64,000 nucleotides of DNA from Branchinecta lynchi (lineage: Eukaryota > Arthropoda > Branchiopoda > Anostraca > Branchinectidae): positions 16,053,998 to 16,117,997 of the forward strand of contig JAKZAP010000020.1 in NCBI GenBank assembly GCA_023053575.1. The letters run 5' to 3'. The position numbers and the translations under genes are program-made. This document shows, piece after piece, positions 3,716 to 59,409 of the stretch. The stretch's first letter is position 1. Each line of letters begins with the position of its first letter. The notes below the pieces were generated by a model, which was not told the origin of the DNA, ran no database searches, and worked only from the letters and a program-made list of their open reading frames with translations.

Positions 3716-3784
3716 ATGATGAAAAATTGTGGCAGATGTGAACGGCCAGTTTATCCAACAGAAGAGTTGAAATGTCTGGACAAG
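3716..3784 (+). CDS. Lasp: Lasp exon 1 (first half of LIM domain)
   Basis: The 69-bp exon starts ATGATG and ends GACAAG|GTAATA, phase 0. It encodes CGRCERPVYPTEELKCLDK, the first zinc-finger half of a LASP-type LIM domain (human LASP1 has the same CxxC, VYPTE and CLDK pattern). Either tandem Met could start; the second gives the length closest to vertebrate LASP1. Lasp binds actin filaments through its nebulin repeats and links them to SH3 partners at focal adhesions and muscle. Joining to exon 2 restores the LIM ligand set C4, C7, H25, C28, C31, C34, C52, H55 (numbered from the second Met). Confidence 0.95.
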
Positions 3785-8810: not shown

Positions 8811-8905
8811 ACATGGCACAGGACCTGCTTCAAGTGTCAAAGCTGCAATATGACTCTAAACATGAAGACATATAAGGGTTTCGACAAACTGCCATATTGT
8901 GAAGC
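8811..8905 (+). CDS. Lasp: Lasp exon 2 (second half of LIM domain)
   Basis: The acceptor TTTTTCAG precedes 95 bp encoding [19 protein letters not shown] and on to LPYCEA, ending GAAGC|GTAAGT in phase 2. It supplies H25, C28, C31, C34 and C52 of the LIM zinc sites; the last ligand, H55, comes from exon 3. WH.(T/A)CF.C..C.MTLNMK.YKG is the diagnostic LASP/nebulette LIM signature. The phases of exons 1 to 3 agree. Confidence 0.96.
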
Positions 8906-9297: not shown

Positions 9298-9382
9298 TCA
9301 TATCCCAAAAGCCAAAGCTACAACCGTTTCCGAAACACCAGAGTACAGAAGAATAGCTGAAAACACCAAGCTACAGTCACAG
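9298..9382 (+). CDS. Lasp: Lasp exon 3 (end of LIM, start of nebulin repeat 1)
   Basis: After CTCCTTTTAG, 85 bp complete the split Ala codon and encode HIPKAKATTVSETPEYRRIA then ENTKLQSQ, ending CAG|GTGAGT in phase 0. The first His is the last LIM zinc ligand. The V(S/A)(E/D)TPE..R segment is the linker that opens the first nebulin repeat in LASP proteins. Confidence 0.95.
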
Positions 9383-10897: not shown

Positions 10898-10998
10898 GTG
10901 AAGTACCACGAAGATTTCGAAAAGGCGAAAGGAAAATTCACTCAAGTTGCAGACGATCCCGAAACATTAAGAATAAAAGCCAACACGAAAATTATCAG
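10898..10998 (+). CDS. Lasp: Lasp exon 4 (nebulin repeat 1)
   Basis: The acceptor TATCTCTAG precedes 101 bp encoding VKYHEDFEKAKGKFTQVADD then PETLRIKANTKIIS, ending ATCAG|GTCAGT in phase 2. This aligns with human LASP1 V(R/K)Y.EEFEK.KGK...VADTPE..RIK....IS, the first nebulin actin-binding repeat. The intron that follows is 25,047 bp, and joining to exon 5 makes AG|C (Ser). Confidence 0.95.
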
Positions 10999-22539: not shown

Positions 22540-22612
22540 CCCTCGGTAGCTCAGTTGGTAGAGCGACTGCCTTGTAAGCAGAGGGTCCTGTGTTCAAATC
22601 CCGGCTGAGGAG
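22540..22612 (+). tRNA. tRNA-Thr(UGU)-like gene
   Basis: The cloverleaf is complete: acceptor 22540-22546, D arm GCTC/GAGC, anticodon loop CTTGTAA (22571-22577, anticodon TGT), variable GGGTC, T loop TTCAAAT. A-box TAGCTCAGTTGG and B-box GTTCAAATC are intact, and TTTTT follows at 22615, a Pol III terminator. Mismatches at the first acceptor pair (C-A), one anticodon-stem pair (A-A) and one T-stem pair (T-C) suggest decay or a tRNA-derived repeat. A relative with similar flanks lies at 38744-38821. Confidence 0.6.
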
Positions 22613-22635
22613 CATTTTTGTCTATTAGTTCACTA

Positions 22636-36045: not shown

Positions 36046-36125
36046 CAATGTCGCTTATCACGGTGATCTTGAGAAGAAAGCCATTATGGAGCAAAAGCGG
36101 TCGCTCACCGCTGGAGAAGATGCAG
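36046..36125 (+). CDS. Lasp: Lasp exon 5 (nebulin repeat 2)
   Basis: A strong acceptor (TTTTTTTTTAG) precedes 80 bp whose first base completes the Ser codon split at exon 4. It reads NVAYHGDLEKKAIMEQKRSL then TAGEDA, ending GATGCAG|GTATGA in phase 1. S-N-(V/I)-x-Y-H-x-(D/E)-(L/F)-E-K is the second nebulin repeat of LASP. Exon 6 needs exactly one base from here and gives GTG (Val). Open sequence upstream of 36046 in this frame is intron and should not be counted as coding. Confidence 0.93.
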
Positions 36126-38500
36126 GTATGAGACAACTATTGCGATATCGATACAGAGACCTTTCTAAAATCGGCAACAATCGGGCGCCCGTCATTCGTC
36201 CGCCTCCGATTGCCAAGACTCAGCCACGCGTTGAGCCTCCCGACAAGCCGCCAATCGAGCCGCTCGATATAGGCGATGAACCAATCGGGTTGGACTACGA
36301 GAGCCTAAAGCGACACGATACGCGTATCGCGGTTAAGGAAAAAGAGGCGATAGTTGGTGGTTGTGTTAAAGGAAGTATCGATAAGTTGAAATTAAAGAAA
36401 AATGTTGAAAGTGGGGAAGCTGGGCTTGGTGGCAAATCCTCTGGTAAACGTAGACTTCTAGATGGGGCTGATGAAATAAGGGAATGTTCTAAAGGGAAGA
36501 AAGGTGAAAAAATGATTGAAGGAGAAACCGAAAGGGAAGTGCGAAAGGCAGAAGAACGAAGGAAGAAAAAAGAAGAAAGGGCGAAAGTAAAAGCGGCGTA
36601 CGGTGAAGTCGATCCCGGGTTTTTCGACCGTCTTTCTAGCTACCAAAACGCGATGAAAGATGTTAATCGACTAAAAGCTGTTTACGGGCTCCGGAAATTT
36701 AAGGAACTTTTCGGAAGCGGAATTTCAAATCGTCAGCCTGATTCGGCCGGAAGTCTAGACCTGCCGGAAAGCATTGGACGAGAATCATTCTTTAGTACCA
36801 GAGACAACGAAAATATAAAACTTATGAATAGTACGAAAAAGAAAGGTCTAATGGAAAACGGCTACTCAGTAGAAAATGTACAGGAAAAAGTAAAGAAACA
36901 TAGAACAAGAATAAACTCCGGTAGACGGGATGTTGGTACTGAAATAGAAGAGCAAAATGAAACTGGAAAACTGAGAAAAGCGACTGATGAACAAAAATGT
37001 AAAAGTAAAGAAGTCAAAGAAAGACAAAGGATAAAACAAGGCCGCGATCATGACATCAAAATAAAAAATGCCTCCGAAAGAAATCCGAACGAACGGGACG
37101 AAAACAAGAAAGGAAAACGACAAAATACAAAGAAAAACGGCAGAGAATATGATACCGGAGAAGAAGAAAATATAGAAGGAAAACTCTCAGAGAAAAAGCG
37201 AAGTAAGGCCACAGAAAATGAGAAAGCAAAACGAGTCAACAAACACAGAACGACTGAGGGAGTAGAGGAACAAGAGAAGGAAAGCCTAGGAAGAAAGGAA
37301 AAGATAGAGAAACTGTTTGAAAGAAAATGTGTTCTGTCAAAGCCGATGGGAAAACCCGCTTGCTTTGCGAACGCCATCGTTAAGAAGAGGAGTGTAACGC
37401 TTGGCGCGATAGCAAATGAGTCGGTAGATAGCGCTAGTAACGGCGCCATATTTGAACAGGTCGACTCAGAATTCAGCGACACGGATGGTGATTCGTACAA
37501 CGATACCGCATATGATTCATGGGACGAAGAATCCGATACAGAGAAAAGGCATTATGCAAATGGCGGAAACCCTAAGGGAAAATCCGGCCTTGGAGGTAAC
37601 AGATCTCGCACAGAAGAGGAATCCATGTCTACGAAAGAGAATGTAACGGTTGTAAATGGGGAGCCAAGCAGTAACAATGGAAAAAGGACCAAGAATGGTT
37701 TGGGTAGAAACCGAATGGTGGCCGAGAAAGATGGAGTAAATAACCCCTCTGAACAATCGTCACGATTAGAGAGGAGTAGGGAAATAGCGCAAGCAGTGTC
37801 TGTTACTGATCGGATTCGCGAGGTTCTCGAAGATATGAAGTTCGAAAAGCAGATAGACGACTTGTTCCTCGACTCCTATGCAAATCGGCGGAATATGATC
37901 TACGATTATGAATGCAAAACTATTCGAAAGCCGAAATTCTTCCATGAAACAGTCTTTGAAACGCTGAAAAATTATCCTGAACTGGCGACAGCCCTTGAGA
38001 TTGAAGACATCTATGGAAAATTCGACTGGGACGCTTTCTTTCAATTACCCTTTGAAGGACGAATTTTGTTTAAAGGGATCATGACGAGGCTCGAACCCAC
38101 GCCCCTTGATCCGGGGAAGTCGTCGGTGCGTCGACTATTCCGCTCCAAATCTGACATGGCGCTATCGAGCTGGATGCATCCGAGGAATTCAGTTGTGAAG
38201 TTGTCACATCGACATAAGACAACTTGGTATTCTGAGAACGATCTCTCAACGGAAGACTTCACTGAGCATATTTATGAAGAGTTCAAACAACGCAAGGCGG
38301 TCATTGATGAAAAGTTTAAAGCAGCGTTGGTGGGCGATGAGTGCATTGACTCGCTAAATGTCGACACGTTTGTTGATTTGAACAGCTGTGATTGCTGCTT
38401 TAAGGAAATCTTCAGACACTGCTCCGTAGACAATCCACTCTTGCCTGTTTTGATGAACTGCTTTGGCAACTACGATCAACATATTATATGGTCCTTTTAA
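36126..38500 (+). CDS. Lasp: Lasp exon 5 extension: alternative 3'-terminal coding region, 791 codons
   Basis: If the donor at 36126 is skipped, the exon 5 frame continues uninterrupted to TAA at 38498-38500, with AATAAA at 38650. Exons 1-5 plus this give 934 residues, of which 144-934 are isoform-specific. Visible parts: a Pro-rich stretch just after the junction (IRPPPIAKTQPRVEPPDKPP); a long Lys/Glu/Arg-rich region, about residues 212-545, probably helical or disordered, with basic clusters (KGKRQNTKKNGR) that could be nuclear signals; an acidic Ser/Asp patch near 588-619 (SEFSDTDGDSYNDTAYDSWD); and a better-ordered C-terminal part, about 699-934, with aromatic/hydrophobic spacing and a CDCCFKEIFRHC motif. 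I do not recognise a family. Such a long open frame cannot be chance at this base composition. Alternatives: a separate intronic gene starting at ATG 36086 (in frame, good context), or a captured mobile-element ORF. Confidence 0.75.
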
Positions 38501-38649
38501 AAGGAAGTTTGATCGCCACATAGTTGGACTACGAGTTTATAATGCACTGCCGCAAATGTGCTGGCTTAGGGGGTCCTCGTAGGGCCAACAACCATCTTGG
38601 TACTTTTTACGTAAAGATGATATTTATACACGAGATTTTAACTGTGACA

Positions 38650-38655
38650 AATAAA
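38650..38655 (+). promoter_or_regulatory. Candidate poly(A) signal for the exon 5 extension
   Basis: AATAAA lies 150 bp after the TAA that ends the extended exon 5 frame, a normal 3' UTR distance. It supports use of this region as a 3'-terminal exon. Confidence 0.5.
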
Positions 38656-38743
38656 CCTGAAAGAACTTTACATATAGAAGTCTGGGACTCCAATATCCCC
38701 TCGAATACAGTCCAGAGACGTAATGGCTTGCGGACCATGCTCA

Positions 38744-38821
38744 CAAGCCCATTGATGGCTCAGTTAGTCAGCGCAGCAGCAGTTCATGCCGAAGGTTACG
38801 GGTTCAAATCCCCCCCGAGGA
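38744..38821 (+). repeat. tRNA-like sequence (tRNA pseudogene or SINE head)
   Basis: It has an A-box-like TGGCTCAGTTAG and a B-box GGTTCAAATCC. It shares its flanks with the tRNA-Thr-like locus at 22540: GCTCACAAGCCC before it and GAGGA.CATT...TTAGTTCAC after it. Shared flanks indicate a repeat family and not two independent tRNA genes. The anticodon arm does not fold well. Confidence 0.5.
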
Positions 38822-46144: not shown

Positions 46145-46402
46145 TGTCGTCCGAGTCTCCCGAGCCCAAGGAGACAATCCCTGAGTACCAGCCCCCCCTA
46201 CCCGCTTCTGCCTACCACAACACTCAGACACAAAAGCCACTCATTGATCCTAATGCGAATCAGTATACACCCGTCAAGATACCGGTAGCGAGCCAACAGA
46301 AATTTAGTGTGGGGAGTGTGCCGTCCACCCAGAATGACTCGCCGTACTCTGCCAGACAGCATTCCAGCTCGACTGTTATCTATTCTTCACAACAGAAAGA
46401 AG
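46145..46402 (+). CDS. Lasp: Lasp exon 6 (linker region)
   Basis: The acceptor CTTGCTCCGTCCAG precedes 258 bp open in one frame and ends GAAAGAAG|GTATTT. Entry and exit are both phase 1, and joining to exon 5 gives GEDA-V-SSESPEPKE. The product is Pro/Ser/Gln/Tyr-rich (IPEYQPPLPASAYHNT, DPNANQYTPVKIPVAS, SPYSARQHSSSTVIYSSQQ), like the unstructured linker between the nebulin repeats and SH3 domain of LASP proteins. Exact phase agreement with exon 5 is the main support. Confidence 0.8.
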
Positions 46403-47439: not shown

Positions 47440-48429
47440 GATACTATGTATCAGCAGAAGCTAAAAGGAGGAATGCAAATAATTAACCCTGAAGCTAAGT
47501 CAAGAGAACTTTTCGTCAGACAGCTCTAGAAAATATGACCGAGAAAAAAGAATCAGTATTAAATTCGTGGATGTTAACGAGAAAACGCGGGAAAAAAGGA
47601 TACCCACGAAGCCTAGAAATCGCGTCTATGGACATAGAAGAGATGAGAAAAGAAATAATTGTCAATTCCGATGTAAGAGAAATACCAAAAGAAGGGATAC
47701 GAAATTTTTACCGAGAAAAGATGAGTCTACCGGATATAAAATTAATTGAAGAGAAACGGATAGACGAAGACCAAGCAAACCGAACTTTCAATCTCCTACA
47801 TACATCGATGCTTTCGCCGAAAGTAAAACAGCATATGTTTTACCAAATACTTAACGTTCTACCTACAGAAGAAAGAAAGCACCGAATTTTCCCTGAACAT
47901 AAAACGGGAAAATGCAAAAATTGTAATGAAATCGAAGATGTAAATCATTTTCTCATTAAATGCGAGAAGAAAAAGGAGCGACTAAGGAAATTTGAAAAAA
48001 TTATGTGTTCTTTAATGGAATATGGATATAAATGGCATTTAAAGGAAGAAATGAGCCGTATAAATCATGGATTAAAAAGAGAAAGGACAATGGCATTTAT
48101 GATATCGACATTTTGTTATTATGCGTGGAAAGAAAAAGAAAAAGGTGAGGATGATTCCGGATTAATGAAAGTTCAAAAATGTTGGAAAATAATAAAAGGT
48201 AGTAAAGATAAAGTAGGAAATGATTTGGAATTAAATTTTAATATTGAAGATTTAGTTTGAAATTTAATTTAAAAAAAAAATAATAAGTGGGAAATTACAG
48301 TTATATTTAAATGATAAATTTTCAAGCAACCAAATTAGTTTTATATTAAGAAAATTGGTTATGGTTAAAAAAAAATTTCATTTAATCGTACTAATTAATT
48401 GTATGTATCTTTAAAAAAAGAAAAAAAAA
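47440..48429 (+). pseudogene. LINE ORF2 C-terminal fragment with poly(A) tail
   Basis: An open frame from 47535 to 48260 (241 residues) ends with a CxxC-x8-H-x4-C knuckle (CKNCNEIEDVNHFLIKC), typical of the C-terminus of non-LTR ORF2 proteins. Upstream in another frame, LKGGMQIINPEAKSRELFVR continues the similarity at about 47460-47520. The 3' end is A-rich (48410-48429). It is 5'-truncated, with no RT core. The long open frame suggests a fairly recent insertion. Confidence 0.65.
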
Positions 48430-49549
48430 GAGTTTTGGTATCGGAGACGGAAATGAAAAAGATTGTAAGAAATGCCACTGCAAAAGCCCGAACGTATAAA
48501 AGAAACACAAAAACGGAGCAAATCTTGTTCGGGGAACCTATGTTTAGCAAGTAGCTTCAGCACATGAAGGCCGGTGTGTCCACGCTTTACCATTTCCTTC
48601 GTTTGGAGTTCCCGTTTTAAATCGTTTGATATAATTAGACCGAGGAGTTTTATTTGGTTTACACGCAAAGGATCTGGAATAGGAGGTTCACAAATTGGCC
48701 CTTCTTTCAGGAAAGAAATTGTAAGAATTGCAGACTTCTTTTCATTCACAGCAATGTCTGAATTTAAAGTATCGGCCTGTATCTGCGAAACTATATTGGC
48801 CGCTTCACTACTTTGTCCTTTTCCACATATTTTAATAAGAGAAAGATCGTCAACGTATTTCCATCTTGCGGGTCTGTCAGAAGCTGTATTGTTAATCATT
48901 ACAAGAAAAAGTAACGGACCTAAAATTGATCCCTGTGGCACACCACAGAAAATTTCCTGCGAGTCCGACAAATTATTATTATATTTTAGAATTTGGGACC
49001 TATCACTCAAAAATCCTACAATAATTTTTACAATATTGGGGTTAGCATTAAATTCGTCCAAAATTTTATCAATTAGAATATTATGGTTTATAAGGTCGAA
49101 ACCTTTTTTAAAATCAATCGCGATTAAATTAATCAATTTGGAGGGTTCATCAGTGTTTTTAAAACTAAAATCTAAAAGATTTACCATATAATGGCTGGTT
49201 GATGTTTTAGGTCGATTTCCAAACTGTTTTGGATCCAGACGCATACAAATTTCTTTGTGTTAACCATTCAGCAATAAAACTTTCACACACACTTTACTGA
49301 AGATTGGGGTTAGGGAAATTGGGTGCACTCTGTCAAAACCAATTTTTGCATCTTTTTTGGGTAGGGTATTGGTGTTACATGGCCAACTTTCCAAATAGCT
49401 GGGTATTCTGAAGTTGAAGAAATAGTATTGAAAATATTTGTAAGGGGGTTTAACAAGCTTATATGGGGACGCTTTGATTAAATCAACAGGGATGTCTACT
49501 GGTGCCACACTACTACGTTTTAATCGTTTTAATTTGACTAGTACCTCAC

Positions 49550-54506: not shown

Positions 54507-57500
54507 TTATTCCAAAAACCTACTTCTGTGTTCCATCGCTAGCCTCAAAAATCGCCCCATTTTCTTTATACCAGCAAAACACTCATCCTTAAAAATTCGT
54601 TTTACCCACTCTTCGTCAAATACACGCACACCATACTCTTCTTTTCTCCATTCACTCAGCTCCACACAATCGCAAAGCATGTGAATCACACTCTCATCCA
54701 CGCACCCACACATCGGACAAAAGTAAGGACCGAACTTCTGCTTACACTGACCAATATAACGTCTTCTACCCCCAATTGGCAGACAATCTGCCAACAATTC
54801 AATAATTATTTTTAACTCATCCCGTCTAAGACCCGCTTTAAACATTATATTCTCACCCCATGTCTCTCTTACCGCAGCATAAAACCCCAAAGATTCCGAC
54901 TGGTCCTTCTGGGCATGCCAAACCTGTACTTCCTGGCTCTTAAGTATTTCTTTCACAACCTTAGTCACTCCTTCCTCCTTTCCTAATCCATCATTCCATA
55001 ATTCTCCAACTCCGCAATCATCCAGTATCTTTTTTACTAGATACGGCCATGAAGTAGGCGATTCTTCTTTCAACGCTTCTAAATATGCAGATTTTAATAA
55101 TCTAACACGTGGCATCCTAACAATCCTTTCCCAAAACCTAACCATATTCACTAGTCTTACATTTCTTAGGGAAGTTAACCCTAACTCGCCCCTAACAACT
55201 ACACTATTTGTCGATTTACTTACTCCTAGCCACCTCTTAAAATAACCTAACTGCACTACTTCTATCTTATCTATCTTCTCATACCCCCATACTTCAGACC
55301 CATAATGCATAACCCCCACCACCTTAGACCTAAATATTTCTTTGTGGGCCCTAAGGTTTCTAACATCCTTTAGTTCACTCCTAAGTATCGAATTCGAACA
55401 TAATCTACCCTTCTCTACACTCTTTTCAATATGTTTACTAAACGTCTTACCTTTAGCTCTAAATATTACTCCCAGGTATGTCCACTCTTCCTCAACTTCT
55501 ATTTCTTTCCCTCCATAATTAAACTTATCTTCCGTCCTCAAATTTCCTCTTTTTCTGAATACTAATACTACCGTCTTACGTGTGTTTAGCTCCAGTTTTT
55601 TACCTTCTAAGTACTCTCTCAACAAATCAAGTAAAATCTGCAGATTATTCCTACTATCACTTAACAAAACTATGTCGTCAGCGAACAGGAGCATACACAA
55701 CAAAGATATATCTAAAGAAACCGTGGGCGCTCCTTTTTTTAACATAAACTCCACAACATCATTAATAAATATTCCAAACAGTTTTGGCGACAGAGTACAG
55801 CCTTGTTTTACACCCATATTATAACTTATTACTTTAGATAATTGTTTCCCTACCCTTACTATCAACCGTGTAAATCTGTACATTTCTGCTAACATTAACA
55901 CAAATGTTACTGGTAGTCCTATACTTATCAGACTATCTATCAATAAAACTCTCTCTACATTGTCAAACGCCCCTTTCAGGTCTACGAATGCCGCATACAG
56001 TCTTCCATTTCTAGGCCTAGTATACTTATCAATCACCACTTTTAATGCGAAAATATTATCCATCGGTCCGTAACCTTGTCTAAACCCTGCCTGTACATGA
56101 TTTAAAACCTCCCTACAATCTAACCATTTCTTTAACCTATTATCTAAAATCTTACAAAAAACCTTTGATATGCTATTCCCCAGGTGTATCCCCCTATAAT
56201 TCCCAACCTCCTGCCTATTACCTTTCTTAAACAGGGGTGTCATTATTGATAAACTCCATTGCTCCGGCCACACACCCTTACTTAATATACCTGAAAATAG
56301 TAATGCCAGGGTCTGTAATAGATATGTTCTAACCCGTTTCCAAATAATTGTGGGGATCCCGTCAGGTCCCGGTGATGACCCTCCCCTCATCTTCTTCATG
56401 GACTCCCACACTTCGTCTTGGCTAACAGGATCCGTCAGGGCGTAATCCTCCTCTCTCAAAGGAAATTCTACTTGTTCCTTCAGTCGCTGCGCTGTTCGTT
56501 TTAAGTTATCTTCACTTGAATGTTTCTTTTCCAGGTAATCCGTCCACACCTTTGTTGAAGGGCCAATCCCCAGCTCCTCTTGTCGAAGTGACCCCTTAAT
56601 TCCATTCCAAAACTCTTTCTTATTTTTCTTAACATAATCCTCCTCCATCATTTTTATTCGTTTTTCATCTAATTCACTTTTTTTCTTCTTTATTAACTGC
56701 TTATACTCCCGTCGTTGCACCCTATACTCATCTAAAAATACTTTATCAACATAAATACTATCCTTAATTCTTAGAAGGGCGACACTAACCTTACTTCTCT
56801 TCGCTTCACATTCCTTATCAAAAAAGTCCTTACCTTGTCTTCTATACATTAGTTTATCATTATCTTCATCCCCTCTGCTTACCTCCCTAACAATCTTACA
56901 AATTGCTTCAATTCCATCTTCCATTCTACCCGACGCAATAATAGATCTACATTTCTCTATCCGCTCTTCTGTTAAATCCTGCTCTAACCTACTACTCAAA
57001 GTTTTATCACTTACATTTTCTGACCTAATTTTTGGGAATACCAACATCCTATCATTTAAATCCAGATCTAATCCAATATTTGAATTCCGACCTCCCTGAA
57101 CAGACATTCTGATACCTATTGTTGCTTCTATTGGCACGTGGTCCGAACCAACCACCGAGAGCACCCTGAAGTCTGTACACCACGGCCAAAGAGACATATC
57201 CACTAAAATATAATCAACTATACTAGGCATCCTCCCCGCAAAACAAGTAAAATCACCGACATTTTTATCTTTCCCCAATCTACCATTTAAAATTACCAAA
57301 TTTTCAATCCCGCAAAAATCCAGTATTTTTCCACCCCATTTATTAACCTTCCGAATTCGGTCCTTACTTGTCCTCTCTACCGGTCGTTCCAGTTGAGCAT
57401 CCACACAAACTCCATTCATACCAACAAATCCAGGGTCGGGGTCCTCATGCGGCAGCGACGGTACAAAAGTCCTTTCCATTTTACTACTCGTATACCCATT

Positions 57501-57953
57501 GAAGTCGCCTAAAAATACAAACTGATAACTTTTATGAATTCGCTTATACTGATAAGTTTCATTAAACAAAATACCCCACGTATCTTCCTTTTCACTATAA
57601 CTGCTAGTCTCCGGCGGAATATATACACCACAAACCATCAGGGAAACATTTCCTAATGTCAACTTCATCCATACAATGTTTTCAGATGACGATTTTAACT
57701 GAACGCACTTACTAAATACACCACTCTTAACTAACATAGAAACACCACCGTACACTCTATTATTTTTACTTCTCCTCCGCGATACTCCAAAAGAATCATA
57801 ATCAACTCGTACAATCAGATCAGGTTTCCAGCTTTCCACAATACAAACAATATCCCAACTTCCTGCTATAAATAAACTATCAAACTTAACATCACTATAT
57901 CCCTGAATGTTCCATTCCACAATTTTTAGACTCAGCTCATGGCCCTCTTTACC
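54507..57953 (-). CDS. LINE ORF2: endonuclease-reverse transcriptase
   Basis: The frame starts right after the ORF1 stop with GKEGHELSLKIVEWNIQG and runs to 54509. The APE endonuclease comes first (WNIQG; catalytic Glu in CIVESW; GDFNGYTSS; SDHVPIEA near residue 240), then RT (SPGPDGIPTIIWK, GNYRGIHL, QAGFRQGYG, FVDLKGAFDNV, GVKQGCTLSPKLFG, catalytic LLFADDIVLLSDS), then a C-terminal CPMC-x8-HMLC zinc knuckle. It is uninterrupted. There is no AUG before the endonuclease core: the first in-frame Met (SMLVKSG) lies about 60 residues in, after WNIQG and the catalytic Glu. The frame is identical to ORF1, separated only by TAG, so translation by readthrough is likely. Confidence 0.93.
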   Translation of the reverse strand, partial: GKEGHELSLKIVEWNIQGYSDVKFDSLFIAGSWDIVCIVESWKPDLIVRVDYDSFGVSRRRSKNNRVYGGVSMLVKSGVFSKCVQLKSSSENIVWMKLTLGNVSLMVCGVYIPPETSSYSEKEDTWGILFNETYQYKRIHKSYQFVFLGDFNGYTSSKMERTFVPSLPHEDPDPGFVGMNGVCVDAQLERPVERTSKDRIRKVNKWGGKILDFCGIENLVILNGRLGKDKNVGDFTCFAGRMPSIVDYILVDMSLWPWCTDFRVLSVVGSDHVPIEATIGIRMSVQGGRNSNIGLDLDLNDRMLVFPKIRSENVSDKTLSSRLEQDLTEERIEKCRSIIASGRMEDGIEAICKIVREVSRGDEDNDKLMYRRQGKDFFDKECEAKRSKVSVALLRIKDSIYVDKVFLDEYRVQRREYKQLIKKKKSELDEKRIKMMEEDYVKKNKKEFWNGIKGSLRQEELGIGPSTKVWTDYLEKKHSSEDNLKRTAQRLKEQVEFPLREEDYALTDPVSQDEVWESMKKMRGGSSPGPDGIPTIIWKRVRTYLLQTLALLFSGILSKGVWPEQWSLSIMTPLFKKGNRQEVGNYRGIHLGNSISKVFCKILDNRLKKWLDCREVLNHVQAGFRQGYGPMDNIFALKVVIDKYTRPRNGRLYAAFVDLKGAFDNVERVLLIDSLISIGLPVTFVLMLAEMYRFTRLIVRVGKQLSKVISYNMGVKQGCTLSPKLFGIFINDVVEFMLKKGAPTVSLDISLLCMLLFADDIVLLSDSRNNLQILLDLLREYLEGKKLELNTRKTVVLVFRKRGNLRTEDKFNYGGKEIEVEEEWTYLGVIFRAKGKTFSKHIEKSVEKGRLCSNSILRSELKDVRNLRAHKEIFRSKVVGVMHYGSEVWGYEKIDKIEVVQLGYFKRWLGVSKSTNSVVVRGELGLTSLRNVRLVNMVRFWERIVRMPRVRLLKSAYLEALKEESPTSWPYLVKKILDDCGVGELWNDGLGKEEGVTKVVKEILKSQEVQVWHAQKDQSESLGFYAAVRETWGENIMFKAGLRRDELKIIIELLADCLPIGGRRRYIGQCKQKFGPYFCPMCGCVDESVIHMLCDCVELSEWRKEEYGVRVFDEEWVKRIFKDECFAGIKKMGRFLRLAMEHRSRFLE

Positions 57954-59036
57954 CTAGTAATCTTCTATCTCTTGTGGACCGAAGTTAAACCGGTAGTAAT
58001 CGCCAGTATACCTGTCACTTCGTTCCCTGAAAGAACGGTACCCTGGACGCGCAAAGTTTCTGTTTCCCACACGAGGATTTTTGGGGGCGTGCCTTTCATG
58101 TTCTACAGGGCTGATTTCGCTACTCTTTCTGGCACGACCTCCTGACACTGCTTGTTTATAACTCCTAGTAGGGACCTCTACCACCGTATTCGCATCACTG
58201 TCATTACCATCTGAGCTTAACGCATCGACACTCTCGCGACTTACCATTTCTGATTCCATCGCTGAACTGGTCCCTGGCTTACCACTGGGCCGTTCCGAAT
58301 GCTCGGTAATTTCCTTCACCTGAGGTGATTGCTCAGTTTCCATTACACTACCTTGGGCTACACATTGACTGTCTCTACCCGCTGCAAACCCTTCAACACC
58401 AGCCTCTGGAGATGCTACTTTTTTAAGTTTTTTTGTCGCTCCCTCATATACGAAAAGTTCACCGTCTACAAACAGTTTGTCACCCCTCAGATACGCCCGT
58501 CGATTCTCGTCCAATGCTTTTTCAAGAAATGGCTTAAGGGCTCTGCGCGCTTCACGTTGAATGAATGAGTAATCAGGGCTAACTCCGACATTTTCTCTTC
58601 GAATTATTTTCGCATTCCGTAAGACATGATTACGAAGATCCATCGTCGCGAATTTAACTACAACTGGGCCTGCTCTTAATCTATACGCTTCAACCACATC
58701 GTGACGGGAAATGTTAAGAGACGGGAAGCAATAATCCAGCAGGGAAGTAACATCTGCTGCCACTGATGAGCCTGGCCTATTTGGTCTAAAATCGTGCAAG
58801 ACCAGGTTAAATCGCTTATCCTTCACTTCCAATTGGTTGATTTTAGCCTCGGCTGTTACCAGGGCCCTACGTAGACTTGCGATTTCAGCCTTTGCTGCCT
58901 CCCCTGCTTCAGCACTCCGGGCAATTTGGACAGACATTTCCGAGATTTTGCTCTGGATGTTTGATACATCCTCTGAAACTTTCGGAATAAGGGCTAGCTT
59001 GGAGTTAATTTCCTGTAGACATTGGGCTTCCGTCAT
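57954..59036 (-). CDS. LINE ORF1: coiled-coil RNA-binding protein
   Basis: 360 residues from ATG 59036 to TAG 57954. Order: heptad-rich coiled coil (about residues 8-75), then an RRM-like segment (RFNLVLHDFRPN.., VVVKFATMDLRNHVLRNAKI, residues 76-150), then a C-terminal basic domain (EARRALKPFLEKALDENRRA), then a Ser/Glu-rich linker and an Arg/Tyr-rich tail (GNRNFARPGYRSFRERSDRY). This is the layout of L1-type ORF1 proteins, which trimerise and coat the element RNA. No CCHC knuckle is present. It ends DY-TAG, with TAG in frame with ORF2. Confidence 0.9.
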   Translation of the reverse strand: MTEAQCLQEINSKLALIPKVSEDVSNIQSKISEMSVQIARSAEAGEAAKAEIASLRRALVTAEAKINQLEVKDKRFNLVLHDFRPNRPGSSVAADVTSLLDYCFPSLNISRHDVVEAYRLRAGPVVVKFATMDLRNHVLRNAKIIRRENVGVSPDYSFIQREARRALKPFLEKALDENRRAYLRGDKLFVDGELFVYEGATKKLKKVASPEAGVEGFAAGRDSQCVAQGSVMETEQSPQVKEITEHSERPSGKPGTSSAMESEMVSRESVDALSSDGNDSDANTVVEVPTRSYKQAVSGGRARKSSEISPVEHERHAPKNPRVGNRNFARPGYRSFRERSDRYTGDYYRFNFGPQEIEDY

Positions 59037-59409
59037 ATTGCCTCCGAACTGTTCTTGACCGGTTGAAACTCCTTCCGTAAAATTAAATCGAATCTTTTAC
59101 CTGATTTTCTCCCAGCAATAATACGCTCCGGGAGCAGAGTTCTTTCGTGTTATCCCACTTTGGCCTGGGATATGGCTTTGTAAATCCAGTATCCGAATAT
59201 CGCTTCCTGCTATTTGGCTCTACTGATAAGTTAGGTCTTACACTGAGATGTCACCAAAGTCAAGCCGCAGATGCAGTTTACCTGAATGTTCTAGTGTTTC
59301 ATCAGAAGTTCCATGGCTTAAAGTGCCTATTACAAGTTTTTCTTTGTGGAATAGTGTTGTGAAGCTTGATTAACTTGCTTTACAAAATGTACCAGAATAA
59401 AATAAAAAT

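Follow-up and report, generated by a model that had tools for sequence, protein, structure and literature searches.

A conserved in-frame extension of Lasp exon 5 in the fairy shrimp Branchinecta lynchi predicts a LIM-nebulin protein with a long tail and without SH3

In the available text of PMC3305314, LASP is described as the founder of the nebulin family and its main member in invertebrates, with an architecture that is called rigid. We analyzed a Lasp locus in a window of 64,000 nucleotides from Branchinecta lynchi (assembly GCA_023053575.1, contig JAKZAP010000020.1, positions 16,053,998 to 16,117,997 of the forward strand). Like LASP1 and LASP2 (LIM-nebulette), it encodes one N-terminal LIM domain and two nebulin repeats at the spacing of the family, and it also holds linker and SH3 exons; it differs from them in a predicted long form that is without linker and SH3 and carries a 791-codon tail. 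The combination of LIM and nebulin repeats without SH3 is also that of NRAP, a LASP-class protein according to the same available text (PMC3305314), but NRAP comes from a vertebrate gene of its own and has many nebulin repeats, whereas the form predicted from the window has two repeats followed by a non-nebulin tail and would arise from a normal LASP locus. Similarly, nebulette and LIM-nebulette are quite different nebulin-family forms of one locus (available text of PMC2359764 and PMC3305314), but there the 5' ends vary and SH3 is kept, whereas in the Lasp locus the 3' ends would vary and SH3 would be lost. The predicted ending is arranged like a composite terminal exon, of which the IgM heavy chain is an example: inhibition of a 5' splice site turns the adjacent intron into the last exon, which brings a poly(A) site of its own (available text of PMC7554721). 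The same order of donor and adjacent intronic ending can be read from Lasp, although the Lasp tail, with 2.4 kb of coding sequence, is unusually long and includes a conserved region of its own, and its poly(A) use is a prediction. The initial annotation knew of no LASP or nebulette with such a tail, and we too found no description of a tailed LASP without SH3 in the open full-text literature.

All Lasp exons within the window lie on its forward strand. Coding exon 1 (3716-3784; first half of LIM, with ATG at 3716 and donor AAG|GTAATA) was located by tblastn with human LASP1 and Artemia P0004 as queries, and is followed by exon 2 (8811-8905; second half of LIM), exon 3 (9298-9382; the interval from LIM to the nebulin repeats), exon 4 (10898-10998; nebulin repeats) and the shared part of exon 5 (36046-36125; SNVAYHGDLEKK..., the end of nebulin repeat 2). 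The latter begins at 36046 after a T-run and AG, and ends at the donor ATGCAG|GTATGAG at 36125/36126, the good splice site that had been recognized at the outset. Intron 4 houses a tRNA-Thr (TGT) gene (22540-22613, forward strand) that both ARAGORN and Rfam report. Splicing 3716-3784, 8811-8905, 9298-9382, 10898-10998 and 36046-38497 yields 934 residues and no stop, reproducing the phase and the count of the initial annotation; three alternative splice-site combinations are likewise open (932, 936 and 938 aa), and only the 934-residue splice, among the open combinations, gives a gapless match to the LASP family. Over 142 residues, its core shares 88.7% identity with Artemia franciscana P0004; the core is also 84.4% identical to a Daphnia pulex model and 76% identical to barnacle P0046. 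The single N-terminal LIM domain is assigned by homology to P0004, in which a Pfam scan finds PF00412, and the two nebulin repeats after it by homology to Artemia P0001, which shares the core and has two PF00880 stretches. A C-terminal SH3 domain is missing from the long form, whose extension has no Pfam match even at E 10, and we class the locus as a LASP member with a predicted SH3-less isoform.

Past the donor, the nebulin frame continues through 38497 to a TAA at 38498-38500, giving exon 5 an in-frame extension of 791 codons plus TAA (36126-38500, forward strand), the proposed composite terminal exon. Both this run-on and the abundance of stops in the surrounding intron had been claimed before, and both were recovered: the long frame measures 858 codons from stop to stop, and the longest frame per reading frame in the flanking intron (5.0 kb upstream and 4.5 kb downstream, six frames) spans 65-157 codons. 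The longest forward frames in 300 base shuffles of the extension had a mean of 83 and a maximum of 162 codons, and these shuffles, together with the conservation described below, rule out a chance open reading frame; composition by codon position (GC1/2/3 = 0.51/0.38/0.43) is coding-like. Features of composite terminal exons found here are an internal exon that has a usable-looking 5' splice site and a frame running on into the intron, and a coding tail conserved between species (in Artemia and, at the C-end, in the barnacle). A candidate intronic poly(A) signal, the previously annotated AATAAA at 38650-38655 (forward strand), lies 150 nt after the stop, the next such hexamers following 1561, 1767 and 2586 nt after the stop; because AATAAA-type hexamers recur about every kb in intron 5, its presence is weak evidence. 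Just past the proposed poly(A) site, a tRNA-like stretch, perhaps a SINE, was noticed by eye at 38740-38820 (forward strand; ...gctcagttagtcagcg...ggttacgggttcaaatcc...), for which ARAGORN and Rfam gave no tRNA call.

The ordinary ending of the gene is present as well. Exon 6, the linker of the normal form (VSSESPEPKETIPEYQPP...; 46145-46401 or 46402, forward strand), is in phase with exon 5 and 58% identical to the linker of Artemia P0004; additional linker pieces were matched at L002:1152-1295 and L002:6893-7255, and the SH3 exon with its stop sits in the expected place 10 kb beyond the window (window coordinate 73964-74140; L003:162-338). These exons are seen in the sequence, and their splicing into an ordinary LASP by way of exons 5 and 6, as originally suggested, is what homology predicts. 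Because both the linker exon and the SH3 exon are present, the locus can code for both forms. In P0004, the normal LASP of A. franciscana, the linker block VKSESPEPLSIS... occurs twice, through either exon duplication or a prediction fault.

To what extent the tail recurs in relatives was addressed by protein searches. With the last 258 residues as query, 1088 candidates contained one hit, A. franciscana P0001 (E 1e-59), a 904-aa annotated protein in the order LIM, nebulin and then the same extension, so that the search of C-terminal residues proposed by the initial annotation did find them attached to a LIM-nebulin protein; P0001 is a single gene model, 5' partial. It also ranked first of 74 hits when the query was the spliced protein's first 345 residues (length window about 514-1634 aa). 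From nebulin repeat 2 on, window and P0001 are 43% identical over 223 residues, an alignment that includes 26 residues of the shared exon 5, and the size of the extension, about 790 codons, is retained in Artemia too. Whether homologues would sit directly after nebulin repeat 2 had likewise been raised: they do in Artemia, and the barnacle tail starts there as well.

Conservation with Artemia is concentrated in blocks, the first of which (GMRQLLRYRYRDLSKIG; 36126-36175, forward strand) adjoins the donor and has 16/17 residues identical. This block bears on an alternative in which the extension is an independent gene lying inside Lasp intron 5, with a start such as ATG 36128 beside the exon-5 donor, that gene predictors fused to Lasp in Artemia and the barnacle. 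Such a gene would account for the Met at extension residue 2 in both window and Artemia, and the conserved C-terminal region does resemble an independent unit; however, part of the Gly-Met-Arg conservation after the donor is explained by the donor itself, a promoter would need to overlap exon 5, and the nebulin frame is kept with no intervening stop in the window, Artemia and the barnacle. Given that the 17 residues following the donor are conserved in the frame of the nebulin repeats and that Met is missing from the first 31 residues of the barnacle tail, the separate gene, against which the initial annotation had already cautioned, is disfavored, and we regard it as improbable.

The second block (about AAYGEVDPGFFDRLSSYQNAMKDVNRLKAVYGLRKFKELFG; 36593-36715, forward strand) also aligns with P0001, and the third, the conserved C-terminal region (MKFEKQIDDLFLDSYANRR...HKTTWYSENDLS...EEFKQ; 37832-38292, forward strand), is 52% identical to it over 215 residues. 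An LxRxxS-type motif at 38135-38152 (forward strand), LFRSKS in the window and LVRSKS in Artemia, is one that we take to be a putative phosphorylation site, of the basophilic-kinase or 14-3-3 type. Residues 601-690 of the frame are the most conserved part (70-77% identical to Artemia), and the middle third of the extension shows little conservation (7-40% in blocks of 30). That poorly conserved middle, like the failure to see the tail in most of the arthropod LASPs listed, would suit an ancient, once-coding 3' end that is now unused or occurs only in rare intron-retained RNA, with the open frame as a remnant. But continued selection is needed to keep 791 codons in the window and about 790 in Artemia free of stops, and to keep 70-77% identity over the best 90 residues when the shared LIM-nebulin core has 89%, such that we consider a remnant less probable again than a nested gene.

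The Artemia models also inform the question of two endings at one locus. P0004, the SH3 form, lies on a contig as long as that of P0001 (45,252,357), and because their contigs are equally long, a single Artemia locus probably yields both the tailed and the SH3 form. Counting against a two-ended gene, P0004, which bears a RefSeq-style name, is the SH3 form only, and as the only other Artemia LASP among the proteins listed it makes an abundantly used long form slightly less likely. The last ~17 residues of P0001 (888-904) do not match the C-end of the window, which the barnacle does share, and the P0001 model is probably wrong at its 3' end. P0001 would appear to derive from the A. franciscana annotation JAVRJZ, whose description in PMC11492255 does not, in its available text, contain the tag QYM36. 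According to that text, RNA-Seq, Iso-Seq, protein and ab initio evidence were combined, with RNA-Seq and Iso-Seq weighted 50 to 1 over ab initio (PMC11492255), and given this weighting a transcript basis for P0001 is possible.

Outside the fairy and brine shrimps, barnacle P0046 (Amphibalanus amphitrite; 546 aa) has LIM and nebulin without SH3, and its tail mostly looks different from that of the window. The two have in common a C-terminal segment (CDCCFKEIFRHCSVDNPLLPVLMNCFGNYDQHIIWSF; 38375-38497, forward strand), weakly shared by an ostracod: CGACLDEIL...LLPLLLGVFGSRRNHVIFSF of P0046 is identical to the last ~40 residues of the predicted window protein at 15/37 positions. This alignment scores 68, compared with at most 41 when the window piece is shuffled 1000 times, and 0/1000 shuffles of the barnacle tail reach that score. 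With the window tail as query, phmmer places P0046 at E 0.0026 among 67 tails including the window's own. The barnacle tail does not stand out with a window-plus-Artemia profile (E 0.47) because the Artemia model is without that segment, and on these alignments the link between window and barnacle is carried by the C-end only.

The ostracod protein, P0048 of Darwinula, has a read-through tail of about 490 residues, then linker and SH3. Plain local alignment of P0048 was not significant for the C-end (211-222/1000 shuffles) or for block 2 (417-429/1000 shuffles), and a two-sequence motif HMM left it unlisted. By an ungapped 22-column score, its DMLFHVLSEISGWGNHSIVWSV comes first among 192 proteins barring the barnacle (20 vs 14 for the next), a score reached by 6/1000 shuffles for a likeness first spotted by eye, post hoc; we treat this apparent trace of the C-terminal segment as a lead only, and the Darwinula and Amphibalanus gene models could be mispredicted. 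The order of parts in P0048 would fit a further alternative, in which the SH3 form is not a second ending: either certain tissues always use the extension, exon 5 being skipped downstream, or the extension serves as an internal exon that continues by splicing into the linker and SH3 exons, making one very long LASP with SH3. The end of P0001, which differs from the window, may similarly reflect splicing near its end. However, the window frame closes at a clean TAA right after the conserved IIWSF segment, with AATAAA following, and the barnacle model is without SH3; of the alternatives considered, we find this one the least probable.

When the four proteins were aligned and the alignment served as query in a third search (about 218-693 aa), 471 hits resulted, and no further tailed forms were seen among the best 120, which were examined. 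The 192 proteins listed likewise showed no tailed form from Daphnia, decapods or insects, and blocks 1, 2 and most of block 3 found no convincing match in the other 191; protein searches of this kind would miss a tailed LASP with few shared 5-residue words or a lower rank. A pattern test flagged 37 of the 192 as lacking SH3, and 25 of these, picked by hand, are short Lasp exon 5 read-throughs that stop 2-91 codons past the donor, nearly all of them insect-like. It is possible, though we would stop short of calling it probable, that the tail belongs to an ancient pancrustacean second LASP form in which donor read-through replaces the SH3 end by a conserved region not described before. Such a form would occur in fairy/brine shrimps and barnacles, and perhaps in ostracods, and would be lost or unrecognized in insects.

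No significant match to the extension was returned by Pfam, NCBIfam or PDB; an INAD PDZ domain in PDB (E 0.16 by sequence, 1.6 by two-sequence profile) was taken as chance. The C-terminal 232 residues have one match in the 576-Mb genome (with only the best candidates scored), and a mobile-element ORF, which the initial annotation had named as a reading that would undo its own and which calls for several copies and element domains, is disfavored by this single match and the missing element domains. The better-ordered C-terminus that had been claimed coincides with the most conserved part of the tail, but its order was unconfirmed by AlphaFold2, which gave the C-terminal 238 residues a mean pLDDT of 36 from a two-row alignment. 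Elsewhere in the window, adjacent frames of 1148 and 380 codons (54507-57953 and 57954-59096, reverse strand) form a non-LTR retrotransposon apparently intact in frame, the former with a reverse transcriptase (PF00078) and a sub-threshold endonuclease match, and other retrotransposon fragments at 47499-48260 (forward strand) and 48411-49259 (reverse strand) show zf-RVT (PF13966) and reverse transcriptase (PF00078) matches.

Because Artemia has the same ending and the barnacle shares its last stretch, the extension has the look of a real protein variant, and we consider it likely to be a conserved protein-coding alternative 3' end of the Lasp locus, formed as a composite terminal exon. The conservation whose absence would have spoken against the original proposal is found in Artemia and, for the last ~40 residues, in the barnacle; with the exon structure, the open frame and the normal 3' exons also there to be seen, one Lasp gene with a normal and a giant SH3-less form is supported at the level of sequence. 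With the donor at 36125/36126 recognized, splicing would lead from exon 5 through exon 6 to the SH3 exon, producing ordinary LASP. Were the donor skipped and the transcript ended at an intron 5 poly(A) site (candidate AATAAA at 38650), exon 5 would become the last exon and translation would continue in the nebulin frame for 791 codons; donor skipping, poly(A) use, stability and translation are the steps that we infer.

The 934-residue product would keep LIM and both nebulin repeats and should still bind actin, but would be without the linker and without SH3; the SH3 domain of LASP1 has zyxin, LPP, VASP, palladin and others as binding partners (available text of PMC4381576). In their place it would gain a tail with a short basic beginning, a middle that is charged and poorly conserved, and a conserved C-terminal region that has no known relatives in Pfam, NCBIfam or PDB. 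The most likely role of the tail would be as a different partner-binding or anchoring end that redirects LIM-nebulin to other thin-filament places, in competition with normal LASP, and the conserved LxRxxS site may regulate it. If this is true, a simple choice of splicing or poly(A) use would have sufficed to break the architectural rigidity of LASP, and the role of SH3 in muscle could be studied with a LASP that naturally lacks it; the locus would also add one more unknown conserved region to annotate. If the tailed form is indeed ancient among pancrustaceans, it would constitute a second lineage-wide kind of SH3-less nebulin-family protein, set by the choice between splicing and poly(A) use.
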